This document shows positions 4,986 to 39,777 of a stretch of 64,000 nucleotides of DNA, piece after piece; the stretch's first letter is position 1, and every line of letters starts with the position of its first letter. A program made the position numbers and the translations under genes. This stretch comes from Amycolatopsis antarctica (GTDB lineage: Bacteria > Actinomycetota > Actinomycetes > Mycobacteriales > Pseudonocardiaceae), in contig NZ_NKYE01000004.1 in assembly GCF_002262875.1 (NCBI RefSeq), positions 62,001-126,000 on the forward strand, given 5' to 3'. A model generated the notes under the pieces. It was not told the origin of the DNA. It was given only the letters and a program-made list of their open reading frames with translations, and did not search any database.

Positions 4986-5047
4986 TCTCGGCCAAGCTCG
5001 CGGCCCGGGACTTGCATACGGCTCGCCGTTGCGCTGTACTCATGAGG

Positions 5048-5130
5048 CCATCCTGAGCGGCCGAGAGACCTGGCTCGACGACGCCGCAGCAACCACCCTT
5101 CGGGGCAGGTGCTACCGCCAGGACCGATGG
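5048..5130 (+). promoter_or_regulatory. SAM-I (S-box) riboswitch
   Basis: The aptamer core is recognisable. P1 arms are CCATC (5048-5052) and GATGG (5126-5130). P2 is GCGGC paired with GCCGC, enclosing the GAGAGA and GGCTC motifs. GCAACC follows in the J3 region, then a TTCG-capped P3 hairpin, and GGTGCTACCGCCAGGACC before P1 closes. This matches the S-box order of conserved blocks. It precedes the MetN-like ATPase by about 220 bases, so expression of that gene is expected to fall when SAM is high. Confidence 0.85.
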
Positions 5131-5292
5131 AGGAACTGTGTACCGGTCCCGAATGCTCACCAGGCGCCGAGTCGTCGACGAGGGTCGCCGCACCGTCAGT
5201 GCGTGTCGACGTCACAACGCCCGCACCTGAGTTTCGAGCAGTAGTCCCCTTCTCAGCCGAATCGTCCGTGGTCTTCGAGTCCACATAGGACG

Positions 5293-25240: not shown

Positions 25241-25328
25241 CGCAATATGTCGACGTATTGCGCTGCAGCCGACCGCAATACGTCGACATATTGCGGTCCC
25301 GATCTCCGCAATTCGTCGACATATTGCG
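25241..25328. repeat. Palindrome cluster A (three units, 33-bp period)
   Basis: Three 22-bp imperfect palindromes centred on GTCGAC at 25241-25262, 25274-25295 and 25307-25328, with 11-base spacers of unrelated sequence. Arms are CGCAAT(A/T)(T/C)GTC and GAC(G/A)TATTGCG. The cluster lies between the convergent stops of the TetR gene (38 bases away) and the DUF559 gene (one base away), so it could act as a bidirectional transcription end. Confidence 0.95.
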
Positions 25329-25329
25329 G

Positions 25330-26226
25330 TCAGGTGCTGGACGCGAGCGCCGCTCGCACAGCCGCCACGATCGCGCCCGGGTCGCCGGACAGCTCATCGT
25401 TGGTGACGACGACGAAGCGCCACCCCGCTGCTCGCATACGCCGGCGCCGGTACTGATCCTTCGCCGTCTGCTCCGGTGACTCGTGCCATCTGCCGTCGTA
25501 CTCCACGGCCAGCTTGTGCTTGGGAAACGCAAGGTCGAGGCGCCCGAGGAAGTTGTGGTTCCGGTCGTAGACGTTCCACTGGACCTCGGGATGCAGGTCG
25601 TGCAACCGAAGCCACACACGCAGCTCCGATTCGCGGATCGACTCCGCCCGCTGATCGGCGTGCGACAGCGCTACACGGGCGCGGACGATGCCGCGATCGC
25701 GGCGATGACGCAGGACCGAGTCGACGTCCTCGACACGGACGAACTCGTGACCCAGCAGCGTGTCGAGTTGTCCCACCGTGCGTGGCAATGATCGCCGTAG
25801 CTTTCGGTTGCACAGCAGATCGAGGGTCATCCGCAGGGGCGTGGCCAGTTGTATTTCATGCCACGGCACGCCGTCCGCCGGACCGAGCGTGGTCCGGGTG
25901 ATGTGCATGCCGCGTTTCGCGGTGAACCTGCTGTCCTCGGGTACGACGAACTCGACCGGGTCGTGGGTGGCGGCGAAGTCGAAGCCGTAGACGGCCGCGG
26001 CGGAGGCACCGGTCAGCGTCGCCGTTTCCGGTGCCAGCCAGGCCGCGCCCGCGCAGCGAATCTTGTGTGTGAGTGTGCGCCATGACTCGACGTACACGTC
26101 GTGGAAAAGCTGGGTGTAGAGCGGCGACCGTAGCCGATGTCTGGTCAGGAAGCCTTCTCCGAGCGCGTGCGAGCCGCGGAAAGTGCCGTGGGTCGACGTG
26201 AATGACGAAAGCGTGTCTGTGGTCAT
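25330..26226 (-). CDS. AbiEi-like/DUF559 endonuclease-fold protein
   Basis: 298 residues. The N-terminal half resembles the AbiEi-type winged-helix and following domain of actinobacterial type IV antitoxin-like proteins (LTGASAAAVYGF, VEFVVPEDSRF). The C-terminal half is a DUF559 / PD-(D/E)XK-like fold: LGRLDLAFPKHKLAVEYDG, then QTAKDQYRRRRMRAAGWRFVVVTNDEL, with D, E and later K candidates for the active site. These proteins occur in many copies per actinomycete genome without a fixed toxin partner, and none is next to it here. The start is set at ATG 26226; the frame opens further upstream through palindrome cluster B, which is not credible coding. Palindrome clusters lie on both sides. Confidence 0.75.
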   Translation of the reverse strand: MTTDTLSSFTSTHGTFRGSHALGEGFLTRHRLRSPLYTQLFHDVYVESWRTLTHKIRCAGAAWLAPETATLTGASAAAVYGFDFAATHDPVEFVVPEDSRFTAKRGMHITRTTLGPADGVPWHEIQLATPLRMTLDLLCNRKLRRSLPRTVGQLDTLLGHEFVRVEDVDSVLRHRRDRGIVRARVALSHADQRAESIRESELRVWLRLHDLHPEVQWNVYDRNHNFLGRLDLAFPKHKLAVEYDGRWHESPEQTAKDQYRRRRMRAAGWRFVVVTNDELSGDPGAIVAAVRAALASST

Positions 26227-26287
26227 CCCGCAACGGTGTGCTTCGCGGCCGACAGAACACCGCGTCCCGCCGGTACGTGCCCCCAGG

Positions 26288-26314
26288 TTGTCCACATCCC
26301 CCCGGTTGTCCACA
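26288..26314. promoter_or_regulatory. Two DnaA boxes
   Basis: TTGTCCACA occurs twice (26288-26296 and 26306-26314), same orientation, 18 bases apart. It equals the actinobacterial consensus DnaA box. No dnaA, dnaN or AT-rich unwinding element is nearby, so this is not a recognisable oriC. Confidence 0.55.
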
Positions 26315-26320
26315 GGTCGC

Positions 26321-26408
26321 CGCAATACGTCGACGAATTGCGCTTGGGCAGCCCGCAATACGTCGACATATTGCGATCCGGGGCTTCGCAATATGTCGAC
26401 GTATTGCG
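26321..26408. repeat. Palindrome cluster B (three units, 33-bp period)
   Basis: Units at 26321-26342, 26354-26375 and 26387-26408, spacers of 11 bases. The last unit ends three bases from the stop codon of the reverse-strand MarR gene. The DUF559 gene starts 95 bases beyond the other end, with the DnaA boxes between. Confidence 0.95.
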
Positions 26409-26411
26409 GGG

Positions 26412-26951
26412 TCAGGGCGTGTGGTCGGCTCGGGCGGAGAGGTCGGCGAGCAGGATGCGCAGGAGATCGGACAGCTGCTCGCTCTGCTCGGGGGCCAGGC
26501 TCGCCAGCAGCGTCTCCTCGTGCGTGAGCAGCTCGTCCACGGTCCGTTCGATCAGTGCGTGCCCCGTGTCGGTGAGCTCGACGAGCACGCCCCGCCCGTC
26601 GTCGGCGGAACGGGCCCGCCGCACCAGGCCGTCCCGCTCCGCTCGGGCGACGCGCTGCGAGATCGCGCCGGGGCTGACCAGGCCGCGCCTGGCCAGCTCG
26701 CCGGCGGGCACCCGGTAGGGCGGGCCCGCCCGGCGCAGGGTGCTCAGCAGGTCGCGGGTCGCCGCGTCCATGCCGAGCCGCAGCATCGTCTCGCGCCGGT
26801 CCTCATCGAGCAGTTTCGCGATGCGCCAGATGCGCGTGATGACACCGATCGACGACACCGGTGTGCCGGGACGCTCCCGTATCCAGGCGTCCTGAATGGC
26901 GTCGACGACGTCGGTTGACGCTGTTTCGGATTCGTGAGTACGCTCGGCCAC
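26412..26951 (-). CDS. MarR-family transcriptional regulator
   Basis: 179 residues. Winged-helix core: RDLLSTLRRAGPPYRVPAGEL, VSPGAISQRVARAERDGLVRR, and the wing SADDGRGVLVELTDTG. The N-terminus carries a helix (WIRERPGTP) for dimerisation. GTG 26951 has no ribosome binding site; TAAAGT (26958-26963, reverse) ends six bases upstream, indicating a leaderless mRNA. It is divergent from an SDR gene that it probably controls. Confidence 0.87.
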   Translation of the reverse strand: MAERTHESETASTDVVDAIQDAWIRERPGTPVSSIGVITRIWRIAKLLDEDRRETMLRLGMDAATRDLLSTLRRAGPPYRVPAGELARRGLVSPGAISQRVARAERDGLVRRARSADDGRGVLVELTDTGHALIERTVDELLTHEETLLASLAPEQSEQLSDLLRILLADLSARADHTP

Positions 26952-26957
26952 AGAGGT

Positions 26958-26973
26958 ACTTTAGCAGTAAAAG
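26958..26973. promoter_or_regulatory. Candidate MarR operator
   Basis: CTTTA, GCAG, TAAAAG (26959-26973) is an inverted repeat with one unpaired base. It covers the -10 of the MarR gene and lies between the divergent MarR and SDR genes. Confidence 0.4.
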
Positions 26974-27024
26974 ACTGCCGGGAGAAGAACGCTCGGGAGA
27001 AGGTCAACGGTAAAGGACGAAGTG

Positions 27025-27756
27025 ATGGGCAACGGGAGAAACGTCGTCGTGACCGGCGGCGGCACCGGCATCGGTTACGCGGTCGCGGCCAGGTTCGCGC
27101 GGGACGGCGACACGGTGACGATCACCGGACGCCGCGAGGACGTGCTCGCCGAAGCGGGCACCCTTCTCGGCGCGATCCCGGTGCCGTTCGACGCGGCCGA
27201 TCCCGCGGCCGTCCGCGCCGCGCTGCCCTCACTGCCGGAGCGGGTGGACGTGCTGGTGAACAACGCGGGCGGGAACACCGACATCGGCGCCGACGCCCCC
27301 GCCGACGGCGACCTGGACGCCCTCGCGGCCGGCTGGCGGGCCAACCTCGACGCCAACCTGCTCAGCGCCGTCCTGGTCACGGCCGCGCTGCGCGATCGGC
27401 TGACCGACGATGCGCGTGTGGTGAACATCGGCTCCATCGCCGCCCGCGCCGGCGCCGGTTCCTACGGTGCGGCGAAGGCGGCCATGGAGGCGTGGAACAC
27501 GCAGCTGGCGAGCGACCTCGGACCACGCGGAATCACCGCGAACGTCGTATCGCCGGGCCTCGTCGTGGACACCGAGTTCTTCCGTGGGCAGCTATCCGCC
27601 GAGCGGAGGCGGCTGCTGGAGGCGGCGGCCCTGACCGGGCGTGCGGGGACCCCGGACGACATCGCCGCCACCGTCGCGTTTCTGGCGAGTCAGGGCGCCG
27701 GCCACGTCACCGGGCAGGTGCTGCACGTCAACGGCGGTGCCCACCGCGGCCTCTGA
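27025..27756 (+). CDS. Short-chain dehydrogenase/reductase
   Basis: 243 residues, classical SDR. Cofactor motif VTGGGTGIGYAVA, NNAG, and the catalytic Ser (NIGS), Tyr and Lys (GSYGAAKAAM) are present. It ends GHVTGQVLHVNGGAHRGL. The arginine in TGRRED suggests NADP(H) preference. The substrate is unknown. ATG 27025 is preferred over the adjacent GTG 27022 because AAGGA lies eight bases upstream. It probably responds to the divergent MarR regulator. Its stop lies three bases from the stop of the convergent dehydrogenase gene. Confidence 0.88.
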   Translation: MGNGRNVVVTGGGTGIGYAVAARFARDGDTVTITGRREDVLAEAGTLLGAIPVPFDAADPAAVRAALPSLPERVDVLVNNAGGNTDIGADAPADGDLDALAAGWRANLDANLLSAVLVTAALRDRLTDDARVVNIGSIAARAGAGSYGAAKAAMEAWNTQLASDLGPRGITANVVSPGLVVDTEFFRGQLSAERRRLLEAAALTGRAGTPDDIAATVAFLASQGAGHVTGQVLHVNGGAHRGL

Positions 27757-27759
27757 GGC

Positions 27760-28959
27760 TCAGCCCTGGGTGAAGCGCAGCAGCTTGTCGTCGTCGCCCT
27801 CGGACGTGGTCACGTACAGCGCACCGTCCGGCCCGGTCCGGGCGGTGCGCAGCCTGCCGTAGGTGTCGTCGAACTCCGGCGGCAACACGACCTCGACGAC
27901 CGCGCCCGCCTCGTCGAGGCTGAACAACAGCATCTTCTGGCCCTTCAGCGCGACGACGGCCAGCTTGCCGTCGAGGGCGCCCCACTGCGGCCCGGAGAGG
28001 AACGCCGCGCCGCAGATCGCCTCGGTGATGTCCCCGGAGGTCCACTGCGCCGGCACCGCGTTGGGGAAGCGTTCCAGGTCCGTCATCGGGACGCTCTCGT
28101 CGTAGGAGTCCTCGGTACCGCCCCGGGAGGGATCCCAGCCGTAGTTCCCGCCGGGCCGGACCAGGTTGACCTCGTCGTTTACGGTCGGCCCGTGCTCGGC
28201 GAGGAAGACCTGATCGGACCCGGGCCGGATCGCGACACCCTGGATGTTGCGGTTGCCGTAGGTGTAGACGCGGCGCTCCACCGGGTTCGGCGAGGACGCG
28301 AACGGGTTGTCCGGCAGCCCCTCGCCGGTGTTCAGGTCGATCCGCAGCAGCTTGCCGCCGAGGCTGTTGCGGTCCTGCGAGATCGTCGGATCGGACGCGG
28401 TGTCCCCGGTGCCGACGAGCAGCGCGCCGTCGGGGGCGATCGTCGGGCGGCAGCCGGAGTGCCTGCCGCTGGAGTTGATCGGCAACCCGGTGAGCAGGTC
28501 GCCCGCCCGGGTGGCGCTGCGGCCGTCGGCGGCGAGCGTCCAGGTGACCAGCCGAACGTCCACCGCCTCGTCGTTCTGCTGGTGCGTCTGACAGGTGACG
28601 AACTTTCGCGACTGCTCGAAGTCGGGGTGCAGCACCATGCCCATCAGGCCGCCCTCGCCGTCGGCGAGCACGTCGGAGAAGTCGGCGGCGACCTCGGTGA
28701 CCGGGGAGCCGGGCGCGGTGCCGCCGATCAGCGCCAGCCTGCCGGGGCGCTGGGTGACCAGCACCTGGCCGTCCGGCAGGAAGCCCATGTCCCAGCCGTG
28801 TTCCAGCCCGCCCGCCACCTCCTCGACCTTCAGCGCGGCCCCGGCCGGGGCCGCGGAGGTGGTCTTCGCGCCGGTCGCGGGGTTGGCACCCCCCTCGGCG
28901 GGAGTGCAGGCGACCGTCAGCAGGGTCAGAGCGGCGAGGGCGATTCCGAACACGCGCAT
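27760..28959 (-). CDS. PQQ-type glucose/sorbosone dehydrogenase-like lipoprotein
   Basis: 399 residues. Lipobox LTVAC follows a hydrophobic signal, so it is a surface lipoprotein. The rest is a six-bladed propeller of the GSDH family: HGWDMGFLPDGQVLVTQRPGRL, GLMGMVLHPDF, SSGRHSGCRPTIAPDGALLVGTGD, SLGGKLLRIDLNTGEG, NPVERRVYTYGNRNIQGVA, and FLAEHGPTVNDEVNL. These histidine and arginine positions match Asd-like soluble dehydrogenases, although PQQ use in actinomycetes is rarely proven. The ATG 28959 start has CACACT six bases upstream and no Shine-Dalgarno. Confidence 0.87.
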   Translation of the reverse strand: MRVFGIALAALTLLTVACTPAEGGANPATGAKTTSAAPAGAALKVEEVAGGLEHGWDMGFLPDGQVLVTQRPGRLALIGGTAPGSPVTEVAADFSDVLADGEGGLMGMVLHPDFEQSRKFVTCQTHQQNDEAVDVRLVTWTLAADGRSATRAGDLLTGLPINSSGRHSGCRPTIAPDGALLVGTGDTASDPTISQDRNSLGGKLLRIDLNTGEGLPDNPFASSPNPVERRVYTYGNRNIQGVAIRPGSDQVFLAEHGPTVNDEVNLVRPGGNYGWDPSRGGTEDSYDESVPMTDLERFPNAVPAQWTSGDITEAICGAAFLSGPQWGALDGKLAVVALKGQKMLLFSLDEAGAVVEVVLPPEFDDTYGRLRTARTGPDGALYVTTSEGDDDKLLRFTQG

Positions 28960-29035
28960 GTGTCCAGTGTGTCCGTATCGGTGTGCGCTCGCCGTACGAA
29001 ACGCTCTCGGGACGTTCGTCCCGCCGCTTCGGCGG

Positions 29036-29380
29036 CTACGAGTTCCTGCCCGCGAGCGACCGTACGTAGTGGATGTAGAGCCCGGTGACGAGCGCCGCGC
29101 CAAGGCTTGTCAGGACGCCGAGACACAGCAGCCACACCACCCAGCCGTGCCCCTGGAGCTGCTCCACGGCCATCGTTCCGTAGTCCCTGGACGAGGTCTC
29201 GACACCGCGGCCGAAGGTCGTACAGACGCCGCCGGGCCGCATTTCCCTGTCGCCGCAGTACACCGGCCCCTCGCGATCAGCTTCCGGAGCCGCCCCGGAC
29301 ACCAGCGTCAGGCCGAGTACGAACACGATCCCGCCGAACGCGATCGCCAGGAAGTTGTAGTCGGGACGGTTCCTCGTCAT
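29036..29380 (-). CDS. Small membrane protein of an ESX-like cassette
   Basis: 114 residues with two membrane segments (about 11-30 and 82-106) enclosing an extracytoplasmic loop with two cysteines (VYCGDREMRPGGVC) that could form a disulphide. GGAGG lies eight bases before ATG 29380. It is the last gene of a four-gene reverse-strand cassette of WXG-like proteins. No family recognised; it may be an immunity or accessory protein, by position only. Confidence 0.65.
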   Translation of the reverse strand: MTRNRPDYNFLAIAFGGIVFVLGLTLVSGAAPEADREGPVYCGDREMRPGGVCTTFGRGVETSSRDYGTMAVEQLQGHGWVVWLLCLGVLTSLGAALVTGLYIHYVRSLAGRNS

Positions 29381-29397
29381 CGAAATACCTCCGGCCC

Positions 29398-29736
29398 CTA
29401 CCTTGGGCCCCGGCCCGGCGGCATGTGCCGGAGCGCGTCCGTCCCGCGTGCGTCGGCCGTGATGTAGTCCCGCGCGCTCGCCCGGCCGGCATCGACCAGG
29501 CTCTGGAAGGCCCGGGGCATTTCGTCGGCCGTCCGGTACGAGGCCTCGCGTGCCGGGGCGTAGTGGGTTCGGAACGACCGGGCGATCTCGTCGCCGCCGA
29601 TCCCGCCTTCGTCGGCCGCGATGCCGGCCCGGGCGTTCTGCCAGTCGTTCGCCAGTGTGGTCCCGGTGGTCTCCAGCGCCGCGAACACCGGTTCGGCGGC
29701 GTCGGGGTCGATTTCGGCGAATCCGCCGGCTGTCAT
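29398..29736 (-). CDS. WXG100/ESX-like helical protein
   Basis: 112 residues, almost wholly helical. It has a W at NDWQNARAG and a spacing resembling ESX-secreted helical hairpins, with no signal peptide. The family call rests on size, helicity and context. Its ATG overlaps the stop of the upstream WXG-like gene (ATGA at 29733-29736), so the two are coupled. Confidence 0.6.
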   Translation of the reverse strand: MTAGGFAEIDPDAAEPVFAALETTGTTLANDWQNARAGIAADEGGIGGDEIARSFRTHYAPAREASYRTADEMPRAFQSLVDAGRASARDYITADARGTDALRHMPPGRGPR

Positions 29737-30851
29737 CGGATCTCCCTCGTCTCGGTGCGGGGCGCCGAGGAACCGACGGTGTCGTATTCCTGGGCCGTTC
29801 CCGCGCGGTGGAACTGGGCCAGGGTGGTGTCCCCGGTGCCGGGGACACCGATGCCGCCCAGTTCGACGATTTTGCCGGGGTCGGAGGCGTCCCAGTTGTA
29901 CCGGTCGTAGACGTGGGTCTGGTAGGTCACCTCGACCTGCGGTGCGGCGCCTGGAGTGATGGGCGGATGCACGGTGGCCACCCCGGTCACCGAGTGATGG
30001 ACGTTGCCGATCGCCAGGTGCCAGTTCCGGTCGTGCTGCGGGGTGATGTTGAACGGCTCCTGCGTCCATTGCGAGGTGAAGGGGATCGGCCTGCCGTAGT
30101 CGTTGTCGGTGGCGGCCTGTGCGGCGACCTCCCGAAGCTGCTGGTCGAGCTGCCCTTCGATCGCGGTACCCAGTTCCGGGACGTCATGGATGATGTCGTC
30201 CGGGTTGACGTCCATCGGGGTGCCGGTGCCGTCGAAGTAGTGCGCGAGGTGTTCGGCCCCGTCCGGCGCAAACGGGTGTGCCGCCGCGGCGAGCTCGTCG
30301 TAGAGCAACTCCTGCAGTTTCTGGTCGATCGTGAACGGATCGGAGGCGAACGGGCCCGATCCGTAGTCGTGAGGAGGATGCGGTAGCGGGCCGGGCAGAT
30401 CGCTCCGCGCGGCGACCTGGGCCGCGGTCCGGGCGAGAACGTCGTTCACCTCGTCGGCCAGCCGGTGAACGATCGCGATCCGCAGCGGCAACAGGGAAGT
30501 GGTGTCGTACAACTCCTGACCGGTGGTCAGCAGGGTGCGGATCGACGTCTTCGCGTGCGTCACGGCGTCGGCCAGGTGGGTGGCCCGGCCGACGAGCTCC
30601 GTCATGCCGGACGCGGTCCCGTCCGCCTCCGCCAGCACCTCGCCTATTCGGGTGCGGTAGCCCTCACCGGCGGCATCGGGCCAGGCGGCGGCGAGCGGGG
30701 CGGGATTGAACTCGCTCGCGGCCGTGAATGCCGCCTGGCCCGCCTGCCAACCTCCGGCCAGCCGGCGTGCTGCGTCCTCATCGGTCTCCGGCCAGCCACT
30801 GCGCGGCTTGACCATGCTCCACAGGTAACCCTCTGGTTCGGCGATCGGCAT
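29733..30851 (-). CDS. WXG/ESX-like protein with unidentified C-terminal domain
   Basis: 372 residues. The first 150 are helical with the WPDAAGEGYR segment seen in actinomycete ESX substrate-like proteins. Residues about 150-245 are proline-rich and loop-like. The C-terminal 125 residues form a separate beta-rich domain with NWHLAIGNVHHSVTGVA and HVYDRYNWDASDPGK. No catalytic motif is recognised, so a toxin role is only a possibility. ATG 30851 has GGAGG nine bases upstream. It is the second gene after a YbaB-like gene in the cassette. Confidence 0.6.
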   Translation of the reverse strand: MPIAEPEGYLWSMVKPRSGWPETDEDAARRLAGGWQAGQAAFTAASEFNPAPLAAAWPDAAGEGYRTRIGEVLAEADGTASGMTELVGRATHLADAVTHAKTSIRTLLTTGQELYDTTSLLPLRIAIVHRLADEVNDVLARTAAQVAARSDLPGPLPHPPHDYGSGPFASDPFTIDQKLQELLYDELAAAAHPFAPDGAEHLAHYFDGTGTPMDVNPDDIIHDVPELGTAIEGQLDQQLREVAAQAATDNDYGRPIPFTSQWTQEPFNITPQHDRNWHLAIGNVHHSVTGVATVHPPITPGAAPQVEVTYQTHVYDRYNWDASDPGKIVELGGIGVPGTGDTTLAQFHRAGTAQEYDTVGSSAPRTETREIR

Positions 30852-30872
30852 CGTGGTGACCTCCGGACGGCT

Positions 30873-31145
30873 TCAGCGTGGTCTGATCAGGTCGGCCACG
30901 GCGGCGACCTGACGGCGAGCGTCGGCATTGGCTTCGCCGACGGCGGCGAGGATGCGCGCACCGAGGGCCCGCGTGTCGTGCTCGCGGTAGATGCGGGGAT
31001 CCAGGTCCAGCGCGAGCAACTCGCCGCGACCGTCGACGGTCGCGGTCACCAGGCCGTCGGGGCACTCCCCGCTCCCCCGGACCGCCTCGATCTTCCGGTG
31101 CGCGGCTCGAAGTTCCTCGACCACCAGATCCTCTGTGCTGTCCAC
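30873..31145 (-). CDS. YbaB/EbfC-family DNA-binding-like protein
   Basis: About 90 residues. YbaB/EbfC fold pattern: a charged first helix ([19 protein letters not shown]), then two strands ([19 protein letters not shown]) and a C-terminal helix ([27 protein letters not shown]). Such proteins are regularly found directly upstream of WXG-like genes in actinomycetes. The start is not secure: GTG 31145 or the in-frame GTG 31169, neither with a clear ribosome binding site. It lies back to back with mfd. Confidence 0.65.
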
Positions 31146-31326
31146 GGCAACCAGTGTCGAGTTCGGCACCCGCCGGGCGGGCTCGTGCGTCCGCTTCCGG
31201 TCACCCGGGTCCGGCGCTGGTCGGCGGGCGGGGCAGGCGCGCCGGGACGTACGCTGGGGTGGAGAGCCCGCTGCCCGTTCTCGTCCCGGGCAGGGGTGTG
31301 CCCGCATGCGTGAGGGGAACATTCCG

Positions 31327-34300
31327 GTGACCGACGCCGAAGGTGTCCGCAAGGCTCCGCTGTCCGGACTGCTGTCCGTGATCCTGACCGATCCCGCCTT
31401 GAGCGTGGTGCGTGAACGTGCCGGGGCACCACTGCTCGACCTGCAGGGACCGAGCGCCGCCCGGCAACTCGTCGTGGCCACGCTCGCCGCGGAGGGCGGC
31501 GCCGGACGTCCGGTGCTGGCCGTGACGGCCACCGGCCGCGAGTCCGACGAGCTGGCAGCCGCGCTGCGCGACCTGCTCGGCGAGGACGCGGTCGCCGACT
31601 TCCCGTCCTGGGAGACGCTTCCGCACGAGCGGCTGTCCCCACGGGCCGACACGGTCGGCAGGCGGATGCAGGTGCTGCACCGGCTGCACACCCCGGACCT
31701 CGGCGGCCTGCGCGTCGTGGTGTCCACGGTGCGCAGCCTGATCCAGCCGATGGCACCGGGACTGGGTGCGCTGGCGCCGGTCGAGCTGCGCGTGGGCGTG
31801 GAGAACCAGTTCGAGTCGGTGCTGGAACGCCTCGTCGAACTCGCCTACACCCGCGTCGACATGGTGGAGAAGCGCGGCGAGTTCGCCGTCCGCGGCGGCA
31901 TCCTGGACGTCTTCGGTCCCACCGACGAACACCCGCACCGGATCGAGTTCTGGGGCGACGAGGTCAGCGAGATCCGCACCTTCGCGGTGTCCGACCAGCG
32001 GTCCCTGCCCGGCGAGATCGACGCCGTCACCGCGCCGCCCTGCCGGGAGCTGTTGCTGACCGCCGACGTCCGGCAGCGGGCCGCGGAGCTGGCCAAGGCG
32101 CACGAGGCGGACGCCCAGCTCGCCGAGATGCTCACCAAGCTCTCCGACGGAATCCCTTGCGAGGGAATGGAAGCGCTCATCCCGGTGCTGTGCGCGGGCG
32201 AGCTGGAACTGCTCACCGACGCGATGCCCGAGGGTGCCTGCGTGCTGCTCGCCGACCCGGAGAAGATCCGGGCCCGCGCGGCCGACCTGGTGCGGACCGG
32301 ACAGGAGTTCCTGGAAGCGTCCTGGACCGTCGCGGCGACCGGTGGCAGCGCGCCGATCGACCTCGGCGCCTCCGCCTACCGGGGCCTGGCCGAGATCGCC
32401 GACCACGCGAGCGGCAGCGGCCGTTCCTGGTGGACGCTCTCGCAGCTCACCGCCGACCGCGAGGACGTGCTGCCGATCGCCGTGGAGGCCGCGCCCGGCT
32501 ATCGCGGCGAGTTCGACCGCGCCACCGCCGAGCTGCGCGCGCACACCGCCGCCGGTGGCGCCGCCGTGATCGTCGTCGCCGGGCACGGCACCGCCGCCCG
32601 CGCGGTGGAGCAGCTCTCCGCCGCGGACGTACCCGCGACCCTGGCGGCCGACGGACTCACCGAGCCGCCCGTCGCCGGCCTGGTCACCGTCACCTGCGGT
32701 GGCATCTCCGACGGTTTCGTCTCGTCCGCCCGTCTTTCGCCACCGCCCTCAACGGTGTCGCGCGGCGACGCTGATCAGGACGCGCAGGCGCTGGTCGTAC
32801 TGTCCGAATCGGACCTCACCGGCCGTGGCGCGAACACCGGACGGTCCACAAAGGACCTGAACACCAAGATGCCGTCCCGGCGGCGAAACGCGGTCGACCC
32901 GATCGCGCTGAAGTCCGGCGACTACGTGGTGCACGACCAGCACGGCATCGGCCGCTTCGTGGAGATGGTGCAGCGCACGGTCGGTGGCGCGACCCGCGAG
33001 TACCTGCTGCTCGAGTACGCGTCCTCCAAGCGCGGCCACCCCGGCGACCGGCTGTTCGTGCCCACCGACCAGCTCGACGAGGTCTCCCGGTACGTCGGCG
33101 GCGAGTTGCCCACACTGAACAAGCTGGGCGGTTCGGACTGGAAGAACACCAAGGCGAAGGCCAAGAAGGCGGTCAAGGAGATCGCCGCCGAACTGGTGCA
33201 GTTGTACGCTGCCCGGCAGGCCGCGCCCGGGTACGCCTTCGGCGCGGACACGCCGTGGCAGAACGAACTCGAGGACGCGTTCCCCTTCGTCGAGACCAAC
33301 GACCAGCTCGCCGCGATCGACGAGGTCAAGACCGACATGCAGCGCGGCGTGCCGATGGACCGGGTCATCTGTGGCGATGTCGGTTACGGCAAGACCGAGA
33401 TCGCGGTGCGCGCGGCGTTCAAGGCGGTGCAGGACGGCAAGCAGGTCGTGGTCCTCGTCCCGACGACCCTGCTCGCGCAGCAGCACCTGTCGACGTTCAT
33501 CGAGCGGATGCAGTCGTTCCCGGTGACCATCAAGGGCCTGTCCCGCTTCTCCGACAAGTCCGAAGTGGACGCCACGTTCACCGGTCTCGCCGAGGGCGAG
33601 GTGGACATCGTCATCGGCACGCATCGCCTGCTGCAGACCGGAATCCGGTACAAGGACCTCGGTCTGGTGATCGTCGACGAGGAGCAGCGCTTCGGTGTCG
33701 AGCACAAGGAGCACATCAAGTCGCTGCGGACGCACGTCGACGTGCTGACCATGTCGGCGACCCCGATCCCGCGGACACTGGAGATGTCGCTGGCCGGGAT
33801 CCGTGAGATGTCCACGATCCTCACCCCGCCGGAGGACCGGCACCCGATCCTCACCTACGTCGGCGGCTACGACGACAAACAGGTGGGCGCCGCGATCCGC
33901 CGGGAGCTGTTGCGTGACGGACAGGTGTTCTACGTCCACAACCGGGTCTCCTCGATCGAGAAGGCGGCCAAACGGCTGCGCGAGCTGGTGCCGGAGGCGC
34001 GGGTGGTGACCGCGCACGGCCAGATGAACGAGGACAAGCTCGAGAAGATCATCGAAGGCTTCTGGGAGAACGAGTTCGACGTACTCGTGTGCACCACGAT
34101 CGTCGAGACGGGACTGGACATCTCCAACGCCAACACGCTCATCGTCGAACGTGGCGACCTGCTCGGGCTCGCGCAACTGCACCAGCTCCGTGGCCGGGTC
34201 GGCCGTGGCCGCGACCGTGGTTACGCGTATTTCCTGTACCCCTCGGAGGTTCCGCTCACCGAGACCGCGCACGACCGGCTCGCGACGATCGCGCAGAACA

Positions 34301-34974
34301 CCGAACTCGGTGCGGGCATGGCCGTGGCGATGAAGGACCTGGAGATCCGCGGCGCGGGCAACATCCTCGGCGCCGAGCAGTCCGGGCACATCGCCGGCGT
34401 CGGGTTCGACCTGTACGTGCGCCTCGTCGGTGAGGCCGTGGACGACTTCCGCCGCGAGGCCGGTGCTGGGCCCGCGCTGGAGGAGCAGCAGGCGGACGTG
34501 CGCGTCGATCTTCCGGTGGACGCCCACATTCCGCACGACTACGTCCCGGGTGAACGGCTGCGGCTGGAGGCGTACCGCAAGATCGCCTCCGCGCACGGGG
34601 ACGAGGCGCTCGACGCCGTGCGGGACGAACTGGTCGACCGGTACGGCCAGCCGCCGGCTCCGGTACGCAGGCTGCTGGCCGTCGCGTCGTTCCGGCAGGC
34701 GTGCCGCGCGGCGGGTGTCACCGAGGTGTCGGCGCAGGGCAACACGATCCGGTTCGCGCCGATGGACCTCGCCGACTCGCAGCTCGTCCGGCTGAAGCGC
34801 CTGTACCCCAAGGCGATGTACAAGGCGGTCACCAGCACGGTGTCGCAGCCGCTGCCGACCGAGGGGGCCGCCGGTGGCCGTATGGGAGCCCCGCAGTTGC
34901 GCGACGAGGAACTGCTCGACTGGGCGCGCAAGTTCCTCAAGGACGTGACGAAGGCTCCGGCCCCGGTCGCGTAA
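31327..34974 (+). CDS. mfd: Transcription-repair coupling factor
   Basis: 1215 residues. In order: UvrB-homology domains ([19 protein letters not shown]), the CarD-like RNA polymerase-interaction domain ([17 protein letters not shown], about residue 530), a superfamily-2 translocase (Walker [22 protein letters not shown] box [41 protein letters not shown]), and the C-terminal TRCF domain. It removes stalled RNA polymerase and recruits UvrA. GTG 31327 has GAGGGG nine bases upstream; ATG 31306 is an alternative. Palindrome cluster C starts six bases after its stop. Confidence 0.97.
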
Positions 34975-34980
34975 CCCCGC

Positions 34981-35068
34981 CGCGATTCGTCGACGTGTCG
35001 CGCCGGCTCGGATCGCAATTCGTCGACGTATTGCGGTGGCGGTGAGCGCAATTCGTCGACGTATTGCG
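34981..35068. repeat. Palindrome cluster C (three units, 33-bp period)
   Basis: Units at 34981-35002, 35014-35035 and 35047-35068, spacers of 11 bases. The first is degenerate (CGCGATTCGTC and GACGTGTCGCG); the second and third are identical. Directly downstream of mfd and about 100 bases before the XRE gene. Confidence 0.95.
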
Positions 35069-35152
35069 CGGGAGTGGTGTTGCGGCGGCGCAACAGCGAC
35101 TCCGCATGGATGAACCGGCTGTGTCGCTCACCCGTGCGGCGCGGCGTCGCCC

Positions 35153-35158
35153 TAGGTT
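35153..35158 (+). promoter_or_regulatory. Leaderless -10 for XRE/DUF5753 gene
   Basis: TAGGTT, six bases, then ATG 35165. Confidence 0.45.
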
Positions 35159-35164
35159 GCTCGC

Positions 35165-36073
35165 ATGGGCAGGAATCCCGGGTGGGAACCGACGGCGCGG
35201 GCGCGCGAACTGGGCGGCGAGCTCCGGCAGGCGCGGGAACGTGCCGAGCTGACGATGCGCGACCTGTCGCGCCAGCTCGGCTGGTCGCCGAGCAAGACCT
35301 CGCGGATCGAGTGCGGTCTCCGCGGCGTGGCGGAGATGGACGTCGTGCTCTACCTGGCGAACTGCGGAGTCGTCCGCGACGAACTCGAACGCCTCCTCGA
35401 CCTCGCCCGCGAACCGGACGGCGGGCACTGGCTGCGTTCACACGGTGAGCGACTGCCGGACGAACTGCGTTCGCTGGTCGTGCTGGAGAGCACCGCACAC
35501 ACGATCACCGCCTTCGAACACATGTTGGTGCCCGGGATGCTGCAGACCGAGGAGTACGCCCGCGAGGTCTTCCGGCTCGCCGAGCGGTTCCCCCCGGACG
35601 CGGTAGAACGCTTGGTGCGCGCCAGGATGGCGCGGCAGAGCCTGCTGCACCGCCGGACGCCCGCGGCGTTCACCTTCTACCTGCACGAGAACGCGCTGCG
35701 TTCCATGGTCGGCGGGCCCGAGGTGATGCACGAGCAGGTCATGAAGCTGCTGCTGGCGTGTTCCTGGCCGAACTCGACGATCCGCGTGGTGCCACGGGCG
35801 GCGGGTGCGGCCGGCACCTTCGAGGGCCCGTTCTGGTTCATCGAGTGCGCGGAGCACCCTCCGGTCGTCTACGTGCAGAACGTGACGGCCAGCGTGTTCC
35901 TGGACGGCGCCGAGCATCTCGACGTCTACCGGCGGATCGTCGCGAAGCTCGCCAGGGTCGCCCTCGATGCGGGACAATCCCGGTCGTGGCTTGCCCGCCT
36001 GGCAGGCCGACACGACGTACCGAGGAGCCAGTCCGATGTGCCACCGAGTCCTCCCGGAACGACGCTGGCGTAA
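35165..36073 (+). CDS. XRE-family regulator with DUF5753 domain
   Basis: 302 residues. The N-terminal Cro/C1 helix-turn-helix (LGGELRQARERAELTMRDLSRQLGWSPSKTSRIECG, shown by residues 17-52) is followed by a DUF5753 ligand-like domain (HMLVPGMLQTEEYAREVF, HRRTPAAFTFYLHENALR, FIECAEHPPVVYVQNVTASVFLDG). This is the WhiJ-type regulator of streptomycetes and relatives. It overlaps a DUF397 gene at its 3' end, the standard regulator/antagonist pair. Confidence 0.9.
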   Translation: MGRNPGWEPTARARELGGELRQARERAELTMRDLSRQLGWSPSKTSRIECGLRGVAEMDVVLYLANCGVVRDELERLLDLAREPDGGHWLRSHGERLPDELRSLVVLESTAHTITAFEHMLVPGMLQTEEYAREVFRLAERFPPDAVERLVRARMARQSLLHRRTPAAFTFYLHENALRSMVGGPEVMHEQVMKLLLACSWPNSTIRVVPRAAGAAGTFEGPFWFIECAEHPPVVYVQNVTASVFLDGAEHLDVYRRIVAKLARVALDAGQSRSWLARLAGRHDVPRSQSDVPPSPPGTTLA

Positions 36074-36224
36074 GAGCAGCTACAGCAACGGCGGTACCGG
36101 CGAATGCGTCGAGGTCGCGGTCGCCGCGCTGAACGTCGCCGTCCGTGACTCGAAGGCCCCCGCCGCAGGGGTCGAAGTCGGGCACGCGTCCTGGCGAGCG
36201 TTCCTGGCCGTCGTCACCGCCTGA
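36036..36224 (+). CDS. DUF397 protein
   Basis: 62 residues with the DUF397 signature WRKSSYSNGGTGECVEVAV, then VAVRDSK and WRAFLAVV. ATG 36036 has CGAGGAG nine bases upstream and lies inside the 3' end of the XRE gene (38-base overlap, different frame). DUF397 proteins act with their neighbouring XRE regulators in development or antibiotic control. A degenerate palindrome begins immediately after its stop. Confidence 0.88.
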   Translation: MCHRVLPERRWRKSSYSNGGTGECVEVAVAALNVAVRDSKAPAAGVEVGHASWRAFLAVVTA

Positions 36225-36246
36225 GCCGATTCGCCGACGTATCGCG
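36225..36246. repeat. Degenerate single copy of the GTCGAC-centred palindrome
   Basis: The 22 bases at 36225-36246 match the family at most positions (centre GCCGAC; arms GCCGATTCGCC and GACGTATCGCG), closest to unit C1. It starts on the base after the DUF397 stop codon. Confidence 0.65.
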
Positions 36247-36287
36247 GGCGAGTGGCGGCGGTACGCCGCATCCACGTCCTTGTGCCG

Positions 36288-36695
36288 TCACGCCGTGGCG
36301 CGGCGGATGCCGGTGTACTCCAGCGCGGCGAACGTCAGCACCCACGCCGCGCCGAGAACGACCACGCCGACGCCCAGGGCGGTCAGCGGCAGTACCCCGG
36401 CGAACGCGACGGGCAGCAGCGCCACACCGAGCGCCGCGTTGGCGGCGACGGCCACCCGGGCGTACCGCGCCGGGATCACCGGGCAGCCGGAGATGAGGCC
36501 GAGCGCGATGGCACCGCCCAGCATCGCGATCCCGATCGGCACGAACCAGCTCGCCGGCAGGCCGAGCGGCCCGGGTAGCCATGGCCCGGCGACCAGCATC
36601 AGCACGCCGAACGCGGCGGTACCCCAGCCGTCGATCCGGAGGCTGACCCGCAACAGGTCACCCTTGCGCCCCACCTCGGCGGTCACTGTGCTCAT
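36288..36695 (-). CDS. Small integral membrane protein
   Basis: 135 residues with four hydrophobic segments (about 24-42, 48-68, 80-102, 105-125), short loops and a basic N-terminus. It resembles unassigned actinobacterial four-helix proteins. The start is ATG 36695 with AAGGGG upstream. Divergent from the XRE gene at 36823, which may regulate it. No function assigned. Confidence 0.7.
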   Translation of the reverse strand: MSTVTAEVGRKGDLLRVSLRIDGWGTAAFGVLMLVAGPWLPGPLGLPASWFVPIGIAMLGGAIALGLISGCPVIPARYARVAVAANAALGVALLPVAFAGVLPLTALGVGVVVLGAAWVLTFAALEYTGIRRATA

Positions 36696-36809
36696 GGCAT
36701 CCCCTTCTCCGGTCCGGACGCCGAACCGCCCGGTCCCGACGACAGTGGCCGAGGCGGCGCGGCGGTTCAATGACCTGCGAGGTCATGGCCGCGCTGACCA
36801 CCGTCCCGA

Positions 36810-36815
36810 TACGTT
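36810..36815 (+). promoter_or_regulatory. Leaderless -10 for the XRE gene at 36823
   Basis: TACGTT, seven bases, then ATG 36823. Confidence 0.4.
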
Positions 36816-36822
36816 GAGGGCC

Positions 36823-37641
36823 ATGAGTGCGGCCGGGCAGAGCAGAGTGGGGCAACTACTGCGGGAGTGGCGGCAGCGGCGCAGGCTCAGCCAGTTCGAC
36901 CTCGCGCTGCGGACGGACACGTCCGCGCGGCACGTCTCCCGCGTCGAGACCGGACGCGCGCAGCCGAGCCGGGAAATGGTGCTGCGGCTGTCGAACTCGC
37001 TGGACATCCCGCTGCGCGAGCGCAACACGCTGCTGCTCGCCGCCGGGTTCTCCCCGGAGTATCGGGAGAGCAGCCTCGACGACGCGGGCATGGCGTCGAT
37101 CCGCTCGGCCCTCGACACGATGCTCGCGGCCCACGAGCCCTACCCGGCGGTCGTGGTCGACCGGTACTGGAACCTGGTCGCGGGCAACGCCGCCATGCCG
37201 CTCCTGACCGGCGGTATCCCGCCCCACCTGTTCGCACCCCGGCCGAACGTGTTCCGTCTCGTCCTGCATCCCGAAGGGCTGGCCCCGCGGCTGGCCAACC
37301 CGCGCCAGGTCCGCTCCTACTTCCTGGAACGCCTGCTGCACCAGGTCAACGCGACCGGGGACGCCGAACTCCGGGCGCTGTACGAGGAGGTGCGCGGTTT
37401 TCCCGTAGCACCGGACGAGGGCGCGGGGGAGGACGGGGACGGGTGCCCGGCGGGGCCGATCCAGGTGCCGCTGCGCGTGCGCACCCCGATGGGTGTGCTG
37501 TCCATGTTCGGCACGATGGCGACGTTCGGCGCCCCGGCCGACGTGACCCTGTCGGAGCTGGCCATCGAACTCTTCTACCCGCTGGACGAGTTCACCGCGG
37601 ATGCCCTGCGGGCGTTCGCCTCCCGCGTACCGGTTCCCTGA
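36823..37641 (+). CDS. XRE-family regulator with MmyB-like ligand domain
   Basis: 272 residues. HTH in residues about 8-62 (LREWRQRRRLSQFDLAL, RHVSRVETGRAQPSREMVLRL), then an MmyB/MLTR-type domain (PAVVVDRYWNLVAGNAAM, NVFRLVLHPEGL, PLDEFTADALRAF). MmyB-like domains bind small hydrophobic molecules, often fatty acids. Its divergent neighbour encodes a small membrane protein that is the obvious candidate target. Confidence 0.88.
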   Translation: MSAAGQSRVGQLLREWRQRRRLSQFDLALRTDTSARHVSRVETGRAQPSREMVLRLSNSLDIPLRERNTLLLAAGFSPEYRESSLDDAGMASIRSALDTMLAAHEPYPAVVVDRYWNLVAGNAAMPLLTGGIPPHLFAPRPNVFRLVLHPEGLAPRLANPRQVRSYFLERLLHQVNATGDAELRALYEEVRGFPVAPDEGAGEDGDGCPAGPIQVPLRVRTPMGVLSMFGTMATFGAPADVTLSELAIELFYPLDEFTADALRAFASRVPVP

Positions 37642-37745
37642 CGGCCGAGCCGTCGTCCGTTTGCCGTAGTGGCTCGGTGACCGCCCGTCGTACGTCCACG
37701 GTCTTGCCGGCGGGTCACGATGGCTGTGAGAGGGTACGTCCTGTG

Positions 37746-38705
37746 ATGCGGATCATCGGACGAACCCGTGCGTTCATCGCCGTCGTTGCCTGCGCCGCGC
37801 TGCTCACCGCGTGCGGCTCGGGCCCCAGCCAGATGTCCTCGGCCGCCATCGTCGGCGACCGTTCCGTCGAACTGGGTGCGGTGCAGCACGAGATCCAGTG
37901 GCTGCTCGACAACGTGCCCGAGGCGAAGCAGGCGCAGGACCAGCGCAAGCTCGACGCGGAGTCGCGCAAGATCGTGCAGGGCCGGGTGATCCACGAGCTG
38001 GTGAGTGTCGCCGCGCAGCGCGAGGGCCTGCGCACCGACGAGCGGCAGGTGGCCGAGCTGATCGACGGCAGCGGTGGCCTCGAACAGGCCGCGAAGGCCG
38101 TGCAGGTCGAGCCGGGCCGGGTCCGCGACGTCGCGTCCGACCAGGTTCTGCTGCAGGATCTCGGTCGCCGGTATCTCGACCGTTTGTCGGTCGCGCTCGT
38201 CGGCACCGTCATCACCGAGGAGCAGCCAGGCAACACCGCCAAGGACCAGGCCCTCGAACTCGGCCGCAAGATCGCCGCCGAACCCGCCCGCGCCGCCGAG
38301 ATCGTGCAGCAGAGTGGTCAGCGGCTGGTGGACGAGAAGGAGCGGCTGAGCCTGGGGGCCGAGGCGCAGAACGGTTCGGAGATCGCGTCCAGCGCCGTCT
38401 TCGGCGCCAAGGAGGGCACGGTCCTGGTGATCCAGCCCAGCCAGCAGCAGGCGGGCTGGCTGGTCGCGCTGGTCAAGGACCGCAGCACCGAGCAGGTACC
38501 CGGCGGCGACCCCGGCTTCGGTCAGCAGGCGGATCCCCGGCTGCTCTACACGATCGGCGTGCGCATGCTGCAGCCGATCGCCGACGAACTCGGCGTGCGC
38601 GTCAACCCGAGGTACGGCGTGTGGGACGCGACCGCGATGTCGCTGGCCGCCAACGAGAACGAGATCACCGGCTTCCAGTTGATGCCGCGAACCGTGCAGC
38701 CGTGA
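37746..38705 (+). CDS. SurA N-terminal-domain lipoprotein
   Basis: 319 residues. Lipobox LLTAC is followed by a SurA_N-like helical chaperone domain (VELGAVQHEIQWLLDNVPEA, VIHELVSVAAQREGLRTDERQV). No PPIase (rotamase) domain is recognised in the C-terminal half, which ends with an NPRYGVWD motif. It is probably an extracytoplasmic folding factor. Start ATG 37746 (GTG 37743 possible). Its stop overlaps the mazG start (GTGA at 38702), so the two are coupled. Confidence 0.8.
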   Translation: MRIIGRTRAFIAVVACAALLTACGSGPSQMSSAAIVGDRSVELGAVQHEIQWLLDNVPEAKQAQDQRKLDAESRKIVQGRVIHELVSVAAQREGLRTDERQVAELIDGSGGLEQAAKAVQVEPGRVRDVASDQVLLQDLGRRYLDRLSVALVGTVITEEQPGNTAKDQALELGRKIAAEPARAAEIVQQSGQRLVDEKERLSLGAEAQNGSEIASSAVFGAKEGTVLVIQPSQQQAGWLVALVKDRSTEQVPGGDPGFGQQADPRLLYTIGVRMLQPIADELGVRVNPRYGVWDATAMSLAANENEITGFQLMPRTVQP

Positions 38706-39658
38706 TCCCGGCGTCGGCGACGGTGGTGCTGGCGCCGTCCGCACTTCCCGCCGTGCTCCCGGCCGCGGCCTGGCCCGCTCTCCGCTCCGCCGAGGTGGTC
38801 TACGCGGCCGCCGACCTGCCCGGTCCGGCCCGGGCCGCGCTGGATGCGAAACCGGCGCCGGAGCCGTCCGAACTGGTTCGTCAGCGCAACGTCGTGCTGG
38901 TCGCCGCCACCCCGGACGACCCGGCCGCCGCCGCGCTCATCACCGCCGGTGCCCGGGTGATCGACACGCCGGTGCCGGAGCTCGTCCGCGCCGCCGAGGT
39001 GATGGACCGGCTGCGTTCGCCCGGCGGCTGCCCCTGGGACGCAGAGCAGACGCACTCCTCGCTGCGTCAGTACCTTGTCGAGGAGACGTACGAACTGCTG
39101 GACGCCATCGAGGAGGGCGACCGGGCGGCGATGCGCGAGGAACTCGGCGACGTGCTGCTGCAGGTTCTCTTCCACGCGCGGGTCGCCGCCGAGGACCCGG
39201 CGGATCCGTTCGGCATCGACGTCGTCGCGGCGGAGCTGGTGGACAAGCTGGTCAGCAGGCATCCGCACGTCTTCGGTACGGGCGAGACCGTGCACACCGC
39301 CGAGCACCAGCAGGTCCGCTGGGAGGAACTGAAGCAGTCGGAGAAGCGCCGTGAGTCCATTGTGGATGGTGTGGCGCTCGGGCAGCCCGCGACGGCGCTG
39401 GCGGGCAAGCTCGGTCACCGCACCGGCCGTGCCGGGGTGCCGCTGGACCTGTTCCCCGGTGGTACGAGCGAGGCGGAGAAGCTGTTCCGGATCGCCGCGG
39501 CGGCACGGCGTGGCGGTACCGATCCCGAGGGGGAACTGCGGGCCGTGGCGAAGCGGTTCGCGCTTGACGTACGTACCGCCGAGGCCGCTGCCAGGGCGGA
39601 CGGCGTCGAGCCCGCGATGCTGGAGGCCGACGGCTGGCGCCACTACTGGCCCACCTGA
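38702..39658 (+). CDS. mazG: Nucleoside triphosphate pyrophosphohydrolase MazG
   Basis: 318 residues. An N-terminal extension of about 95 residues, as in mycobacterial MazG, is followed by the MazG domain: LRSPGGCPWDAEQTHSSLRQYLVEETYELLDAIEEG, the EELGDVLLQVLFHARV metal-binding helix (EExxE...D), and RHPHVFG. It hydrolyses (d)NTPs, including oxidised ones. GTG 38702 overlaps the SurA-like gene by four bases. Palindrome cluster D begins 22 bases after its stop. Confidence 0.93.
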   Translation: MIPASATVVLAPSALPAVLPAAAWPALRSAEVVYAAADLPGPARAALDAKPAPEPSELVRQRNVVLVAATPDDPAAAALITAGARVIDTPVPELVRAAEVMDRLRSPGGCPWDAEQTHSSLRQYLVEETYELLDAIEEGDRAAMREELGDVLLQVLFHARVAAEDPADPFGIDVVAAELVDKLVSRHPHVFGTGETVHTAEHQQVRWEELKQSEKRRESIVDGVALGQPATALAGKLGHRTGRAGVPLDLFPGGTSEAEKLFRIAAAARRGGTDPEGELRAVAKRFALDVRTAEAAARADGVEPAMLEADGWRHYWPT

Positions 39659-39680
39659 TCCTCCCGGCCCACCTACTCAC

Positions 39681-39777
39681 CGCAATATGTCGACGTATTG
39701 CGATACCTTGTGCGCGATGGATCGCAATACGTCGACATATTGCGGGCTACTGGATCGCAATACGTCGACATATTGCG
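39681..39777. repeat. Palindrome cluster D (three units, 42- and 33-bp steps)
   Basis: Units at 39681-39702, 39723-39744 and 39756-39777. The first spacer is 20 bases instead of 11, nine more than elsewhere; the second is 11. Downstream of mazG and about 115 bases before the lytic transglycosylase gene. Confidence 0.95.

Follow-up and report, generated by a model that had tools for sequence, protein, structure and literature searches.

What kind of protein recognises, and perhaps spreads, a family of short palindromes that stands in regularly spaced groups on both sides of a predicted nuclease gene? The question is raised by a 64,000-nucleotide stretch of the Amycolatopsis antarctica genome (contig NZ_NKYE01000004.1, positions 62,001 to 126,000; hereafter the window), which holds four clusters of a 22-bp palindromic unit (A to D) and one relic, and in which clusters A and B flank the gene of a DUF559-domain protein, a predicted endonuclease (Table 1). 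The repeat family extends across the genome, and we lean, with modest confidence, towards the view that the DUF559 protein that it also brackets binds the units as its own sites; we predict that this protein has copied them into gene ends. A first-pass annotation of the window had described the palindromes and their spacing; it overlooked the bracketed nuclease gene, a conserved 20-bp spacer and the placement of the clusters at gene ends.

Results

Bracketing of DUF559 genes across the genus

The two-sided occurrence of like units at DUF559 genes is the observation that carries this view. We compared the 30 best loci, one per genome and including that of A. antarctica, with 390 control genes taken from the same genome and from G070, G075 and G013. 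In this label-free comparison, a near-palindromic 20-mer common to both gene sides with at most 2 mismatches was found at 22 of the 30 DUF559 loci and at 0 of the 390 controls (best control, 3); at L234 and L243 the common stretch across the gene is the linker palindrome. When the palindrome condition and the 10-bp overlap into the gene were dropped, a common stretch with at most 1 mismatch was present in 15 of 30 loci versus 0 of 451 controls, and at 2 mismatches the same relaxed test gave 2 of 30 loci and 4 of 451 controls. With unit types assigned post hoc, by reading the flanks, one type lies on both gene sides in 27 of 30 loci and on one side only in G021, G075 and G013. In a paralogue group, units of a GCCCGC type are found on both sides in 10 of 15 loci, on one side in 2 and on neither in 3 (19 loci were fetched; the tally omits two distant G072 copies and two loci already counted). 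Eight palindrome types were found on both sides of DUF559 genes. At L252 in G072, a distant DUF559 relative (25% identical) has the exact repeat TGAAAGGTCCTTTCCTTGCA on each side, 110 bp ahead of the gene and 97 bp beyond it.

These counts bear on the idea that the units beside the nuclease gene are an autoregulatory operator only, as for AbiEi, and that the copies elsewhere in the genome were spread by another agent. AbiEi and Rv2827c bind tandem 23-bp promoter repeats (PMC7319586), and most loci do have paired units upstream of the gene. However, those same 27 loci also carry units at the 3′-end of the gene, where one would not look for an operator, and the dispersed clusters keep the same steps as the clusters at the gene; we consider this explanation very unlikely.

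The A. antarctica gene encodes 298 residues (the analyses used 25330-26223; the ATG at 26226 was read from the sequence). Its product matches PF04480 with 28.5 bits (cut-off 20.6) and PF18741 with 29.4 bits, the latter under the cut-off of that family (38.2). In the acidic core of DUF559 proteins E241 is invariant and D230, D243 and H247 are nearly so, and the domain match, this conserved core and the predicted fold suggest that the product is likely a Vsr-like PD-(D/E)XK nuclease. PADLOC returned nothing for the protein, and NCBIfam gave no match above cut-off. DUF559 proteins are common and mostly have no assigned role.

Co-turnover and conserved geometry

Mapped onto a tree of 45 DUF559 proteins, the unit types require 13 changes; the minimum is 11 and the shuffled mean 31.1, with the reservation that near relatives on the tree make some clustering of types inevitable. 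One gene neighbourhood is common to seventeen species, yet five unit types are present there; a different neighbourhood holds the cassette in opposite directions in two groups; and the genes occupy at least six neighbourhoods, including that of a paralogue pair, as judged by protein matches in about 1.4 kb of flank. Among 22 loci, 33-bp steps are found at six loci with CACGTG-type units and at the A. antarctica locus, and steps of 41-43 bp (centres rounded) go with the CTTTCCCTA, AGGA/TCCT and CGTCGACTTGC types, the exception being G015, with steps of 25, 52 and 57. Because steps of 33 and 41-43 bp recur with differing palindrome sequences, the two steps outlast the sequences. This recurrence at congener nuclease genes, together with 11-bp spacers that keep their length and have randomised sequence, supports one part of the first-pass interpretation, a sequence-specific protein that acts on units at fixed spacing. 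The putative recognition of the unit by the nuclease is thus supported by bracketing, co-turnover and geometry.

Exact 25-bp steps, a third class, are seen in two four-unit arrays, at L134 1577-1652 in a congener and at L242 1280-1355 in G015. The CACGTG-type unit (CTTTCACGTGAAAG; L220, L223-L226, L228 and L229) resembles the chromosome-partition site parS (GTTTCACGTGAAAC). A Vsr-like need for a T:G mismatch was rejected as a general rule: units of A. antarctica and G072 often show T..G across the dyad, but the CACGTG units are perfectly symmetric.

The genome-wide family

The unit in the window has the form CGCAAT-WY-GTCGAC-RW-ATTGCG. A search with the earlier consensus gave 11 matches (0-1 mismatch) in the window versus none in 100 shuffles; with C1 at 34981 (3 mismatches, slightly wider consensus) and the relic at 36225 (5 mismatches), these account for the thirteen copies at five places that had been described. 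The exact 33-bp steps reported for A, B, C and one step of D were recovered (33,33 in each of A, B and C; 42,33 in D), and a comparison of the 11-bp spacers agrees with the statement that they are mutually unlike, their sequences being unrelated. The claim that all copies are confined to 14.5 kb holds within the window and fails genome-wide: the genome search that the first-pass annotation had proposed found 169 copies (at most 3 mismatches) in 6.34 Mb on 64 contigs, and a reversed-pattern control found 0, so that the window is only a dense patch. In the places read, the copies are mostly grouped at fixed steps; neither singly scattered copies lacking a fixed spacing nor an exact match to a described repeat family, the two outcomes named at the time as contrary, was seen.

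As part of these 169 copies we read 137 units (at most 4 mismatches) in 55 clusters. The clusters were picked from the first 50 sites and all 88 exact AT/AC sites, which biases unit-type tallies over the 55 towards AT/AC, and the clusters not picked by unit type (L016-L038) were tallied separately. Between neighbouring units there are 82 steps, 49 of 33 bp, 30 of 42 bp and one each of 34, 45 and 74 bp, so that 79 of the 82 are exactly 33 or 42 bp; the 42-bp step of cluster D is a second regular step class and not an irregularity. The first-pass annotation had taken the 33-bp step as about three turns, which would set bound protein dimers on one face of the helix; with 10.5 bp to the turn, the 33-bp step makes 3.14 turns and the 42-bp step 4.0. 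Clusters in the window and among those read have at most 4 units each and are mostly groups of two and three.

The two steps differ in what lies between the units. In the 33-bp step the 11-bp spacers are about as divergent as column-shuffled ones (43 pairs differ at 2 or fewer positions, where about 28 would be expected), whereas the 20-bp spacer of the 42-bp step is conserved; it reads ATRCCTTGTGCACGATGSWT, or the reverse of this, and is an imperfect palindrome. Across the 11-bp spacer, neighbouring units are inverted in 22 cases, in the same orientation in 13 and unclassed in 14, the units being nearly symmetric. Within the units, limited as they are to at most 4 mismatches, non-consensus bases outside the variable dinucleotides occupy 23 of 2466 positions, or about 1%. 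The arm dinucleotides at the variable place are AT, AC or TC, with TT once, and equal arms, which make a unit perfectly palindromic, are seen in 6 of 123 units, where 49 would be expected, and in the subset not picked by type in 2 of 52, where 20 would be expected; perfect symmetry is avoided in the units of this genome. One two-base variant unit recurs in three clusters, next to differing spacers, and the bases adjoining a unit are mostly A-C/G before it and G/C-T after it. A second small palindrome family (GCGTTTAGCGGGCTAAATGC-like) has three copies in the genome, at C14:267603, 281487 and 288363; for one of them, the stop codon of a second DUF559 copy is 8 bp away.

Placement at gene ends

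All 55 clusters that were read are intergenic (genes called by a simple codon-position caller that allows overlaps of up to 30 bp), with 31 in codirectional, 19 in convergent and 4 in divergent gaps and 1 unresolved. Clusters in codirectional gaps lie at a median of 26 bp from the stop and 122 bp from the start that follows. Asymmetric units have the same orientation as the gene strand in 30 cases and the opposite one in 34, and the 20-bp spacer is divided 8:8 with 1 unclear; on these counts a strand-specific RNA element was rejected.

Gene-end placement would also suit units that act as RNA hairpins, terminating transcripts or protecting them at the 3′-ends of genes; two paired units would then form one long stem with the spacer as its loop. 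By eye, unit-spacer-unit pairs at several congener nuclease genes are near-exact inverted repeats, and G021 and G076 carry a GC-rich hairpin in place of units at the locus orthologous to L058. In G072, 5 of 32 isolated units lie in a stem of at least 5 bp versus 0.3 expected, and separate-flank hairpins are weaker in cluster-bearing convergent regions (-11.8 vs -22.2, n 8 and 14; -21.3 vs -37.6, n 5 and 9; length-matched, with shorter pieces). However, there is no T-run and the outer flanks are G-rich, the T..G asymmetry is not oriented with transcription (the 30:34 division above), a hairpin alone does not need a sequence fixed to about 1%, and pairing between the outer flanks of one cluster is not clearly stronger than pairing between swapped flanks (p 0.066-0.20). 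We regard an RNA hairpin as distinctly unlikely to explain the family.

Two narrower versions were also set aside. An intrinsic terminator would have a GC-rich hairpin and a T-run, and the units are AT-rich with G-rich right flanks. For units placed as loops of older terminators, own-flank pairing is not clearly above swapped and the flank complementarity of single units is not above shuffles; L018 and L061 do show flank complementarity, and with the G072 stems such loops may represent a landing preference.

Units in other genomes

The three-unit array of the A. antarctica palindrome was found in none of 84,980 other genomes (a search that may leave out the source genome) and in none of the literature searched, in keeping with the first-pass statement that no named family has this triplet layout. 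The unit itself has at most 0-2 matches with 2 mismatches per genome in 79 congeners; single units were not found in viral contigs, nor cluster D in plasmids. A related palindrome does exist in congeners, from which 8 of the 14 stretches examined came. Units of the form GCATTYAG-NNNN-CTRAATGC are present in 26 of 79 congeners, at 40 to 203 copies in 14 of them, with 0 in the control and 3 in A. antarctica. In G072, 69 such units at 40 sampled places comprise 38 in convergent, 18 in codirectional and 2 in divergent gaps, 4 inside genes and 7 unresolved, and of 19 close steps, 8 measure 42 bp and enclose a similar palindromic spacer of 22 bp. From this placement and step it follows that the two-part architecture recurs with another sequence.

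Three of four sampled congeners disperse units at gene ends. In G003, 400 kb outside the nuclease locus contain three pairs of CACGTG-type units, each pair within 3-8 bp of a stop on at least one side, and G076 has three units in 120 kb, at gene ends; a 400-kb sample of A. antarctica holds no G003- or G076-type units, and 380 kb of G070, G075 and G013 holds one match to the G003 unit. Single units of sister-lineage type stand at L280 14826 (G003), L300 10144 and L301 3504 and 3910 (G037), in genomes that bracket their own nuclease gene with another type, and may be relics of an earlier specificity. Six of the 14 congeners with at least 40 GCATTYAG-type units hold a close nuclease relative, 51-54% identical. 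In 7 of the remaining 8, the paralogue examined is bracketed by GCCCGC-type units of its own, whose outer arms (GCGTTTAG) resemble the dispersed units.

Unit positions shared with congeners were sought and discarded as evidence: one site (L058/L149) among 56 congener loci is no more than the estimated chance level. In G072, stem halves look swapped, as after an inversion between units, at L170 (1954 and 3416, 1462 bp apart) and L167 (2007 and 2281, 274 bp apart).

Features of the window

The genes adjoining the clusters are ordinary (TetR, MarR, TRCF-domain and MazG), and an Rfam scan found no family at the clusters. An HTH_31/DUF5753 gene (35165-36073, + strand) lies between cluster C and the relic and so is likewise flanked by units, although the relic is a degenerate one. 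A SAM riboswitch (Rfam RF00162) is present at 5045-5133 (+ strand).

Table 1. Palindromic units and the bracketed gene, in window coordinates
Feature	Position	Strand	Remarks
Unit A1	25241..25262	none	
Unit A2	25274..25295	none	33-bp step
Unit A3	25307..25328	none	33-bp step; 1 bp off nuclease gene stop codon
DUF559-domain gene, predicted endonuclease	25330..26226	-	between clusters A and B; N-terminal part predicted to be AbiEi-like, C-terminal part Vsr/homing-endonuclease-like
Unit B1	26321..26342	none	94 bp upstream of nuclease gene ATG
Unit B2	26354..26375	none	33-bp step
Unit B3	26387..26408	none	33-bp step; 3 bp off MarR-family gene end
Unit C1	34981..35002	none	3 mismatches; 6 bp past TRCF-domain (mfd-like) gene
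Unit C2	35014..35035	none	33-bp step
Unit C3	35047..35068	none	33-bp step
Degenerate lone copy, likely relic	36225..36246	none	5 mismatches; read directly
Unit D1	39681..39702	none	22 bp past MazG-domain gene
Conserved 20-bp spacer of 42-bp step, imperfect palindrome	39703..39722	none	
Unit D2	39723..39744	none	42-bp step
Unit D3	39756..39777	none	33-bp step

Discussion

It is informative to set these observations against several that weigh the other way. The 30 loci of the bracketing comparison are related by descent and hence not independent, and over 45 loci five are one-sided and three have units on neither side, these eight including two further copies from A. antarctica itself; the upstream units could be a mere operator. 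DUF559 genes were matched in 66 of 80 genomes of the genus, so presence alone does not track dispersal, and we set the widespread gene aside as a tracker of units. The AbiEi-like match of the N-terminal part has a high rmsd. In G037 the bracketing unit of the locus is absent from 280 kb, where the CACGTG unit of the sister lineage has 5 matches (0-4 mismatches), one inside a called gene. No empty site was readable, the nearest congener being 78% identical at one locus. Binding, cutting and spreading of the units by the nuclease are steps that we infer. Finally, in 8 of the 14 unit-rich congeners (G002, G007, G008, G019, G032, G053, G072 and G079) the best match is a 44-46% identical paralogue, and the units persist there without a close relative; these eight genomes would be accounted for by a nuclease that was lost or exchanged once the units had spread, or by another binder.

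Such a binder could be a protein unrelated to the nuclease, of the nucleoid or transcription-roadblock kind, whose sites the nuclease gene carries as other genes do. Besides the eight genomes, the placement at stop codons, the independence of orientation (30 same, 34 opposite), the fixed spacing and the conservation of units and not of spacers are all consistent with it. It predicts no two-sided palindromic stretch, however, in contrast with the 22 of 30 DUF559 loci and 0 of 390 controls, and no change of unit type along the protein tree of the sort observed; we consider it unlikely, if the first of the alternatives to bear in mind.

Comparison with known systems places the family closest to repetitive extragenic palindromes (REPs) and bacterial interspersed mosaic elements (BIMEs). 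REP/BIME systems with a RAYT protein, a REP-associated tyrosine transposase, have more than 100 short extragenic palindromes, arrays of regular spacing and a nuclease gene with palindromes of its own kind on either side (PMC2817692); high-copy extragenic palindromes are what we find here, with 169 copies and all 55 clusters between genes. Of the regular spacing and alternating orientation of such arrays, the spacing is seen here; for orientation, the nearly symmetric units give the mixed tally above (22 inverted, 13 same, 14 unclassed). In contrast, the GTAG-type tag is absent from the unit ends, the bracketed gene encodes a predicted Vsr-like protein with an AbiEi-like part, and the RAYT domain Y1_Tnp (PF01797) was found in 0 of 80 genomes of the genus, A. 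antarctica included, where the control was positive in 5 of 14 known genomes. A RAYT/IS200-type mobiliser was rejected on this absence. With neither Y1_Tnp protein nor GTAG tag, the family falls outside REP/RAYT, which stays a working analogue.

REPs with a CGTC tag are short palindromic repeats apparently lacking a dedicated transposase, according to one paper (PMC3733652), in which the word "Actinobacteria" was not found. The present units differ in having no CGTC end tag, since they start with CGCAAT and end with ATTGCG, and in having a proposed cognate gene. The AbiEi and Rv2827c antitoxins are alike in tandem repeats of about 23 bp next to their own gene and perhaps, given the AbiEi-like match, in the N-terminal part; they are unlike in that here a nuclease domain follows and sites occur throughout the genome. 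From Vsr and the homing endonuclease I-Bth0305I the present case differs in that no intron was seen and the proposed target is a dispersed palindrome. A CRISPR array was dismissed: spacers are 11 or 20 bp and not longer than 20, clusters have at most 4 units and there are 55 separate places. By title and abstract, and with subscription papers mostly outside the search, no literature was found that connects palindromes of this kind with DUF559 genes, Vsr-like genes or Amycolatopsis.

The family is in sum best read as REP/BIME-like, with an AbiEi-Vsr nuclease, rather than a RAYT, as its likely partner. Under the proposal that the DUF559 protein binds and spreads the units, in the manner proposed for RAYT transposases and REP/BIME repeats, its AbiEi-like part would dock on the unit of about 22 bp, and copies of the protein would occupy adjacent units, one fixed step apart. 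Nicking or cutting near the unit may fall to the Vsr/homing-endonuclease-like part, and repair would then copy units, and sometimes the entire cassette, into gaps between genes next to stop codons. Units at gene ends may be tolerated, or may serve as protein-bound 3′ barriers, and units without the gene would be survivors of a lost or exchanged nuclease. A broader reading, which we hold as a tentative one that may well prove wrong, is that this is a second, independently evolved REP-type system, in which an AbiEi-Vsr fusion nuclease of a homing-endonuclease-related fold works with a lineage-specific palindrome of about 22 bp at a 33- or 42-bp pitch, with hundreds of copies at gene ends and mutual rewriting of sequence across Amycolatopsis.

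If true, this would add a new route by which repeats come to fill bacterial genomes. REP-like repeats that lack a RAYT, such as the CGTC class (PMC3733652), would gain a candidate agent from a different nuclease superfamily, one that could be tested in a single genus. The eight types would provide matched pairs of protein and site for asking how AbiEi-type domains read DNA, and the finding would also give DUF559 proteins a role.

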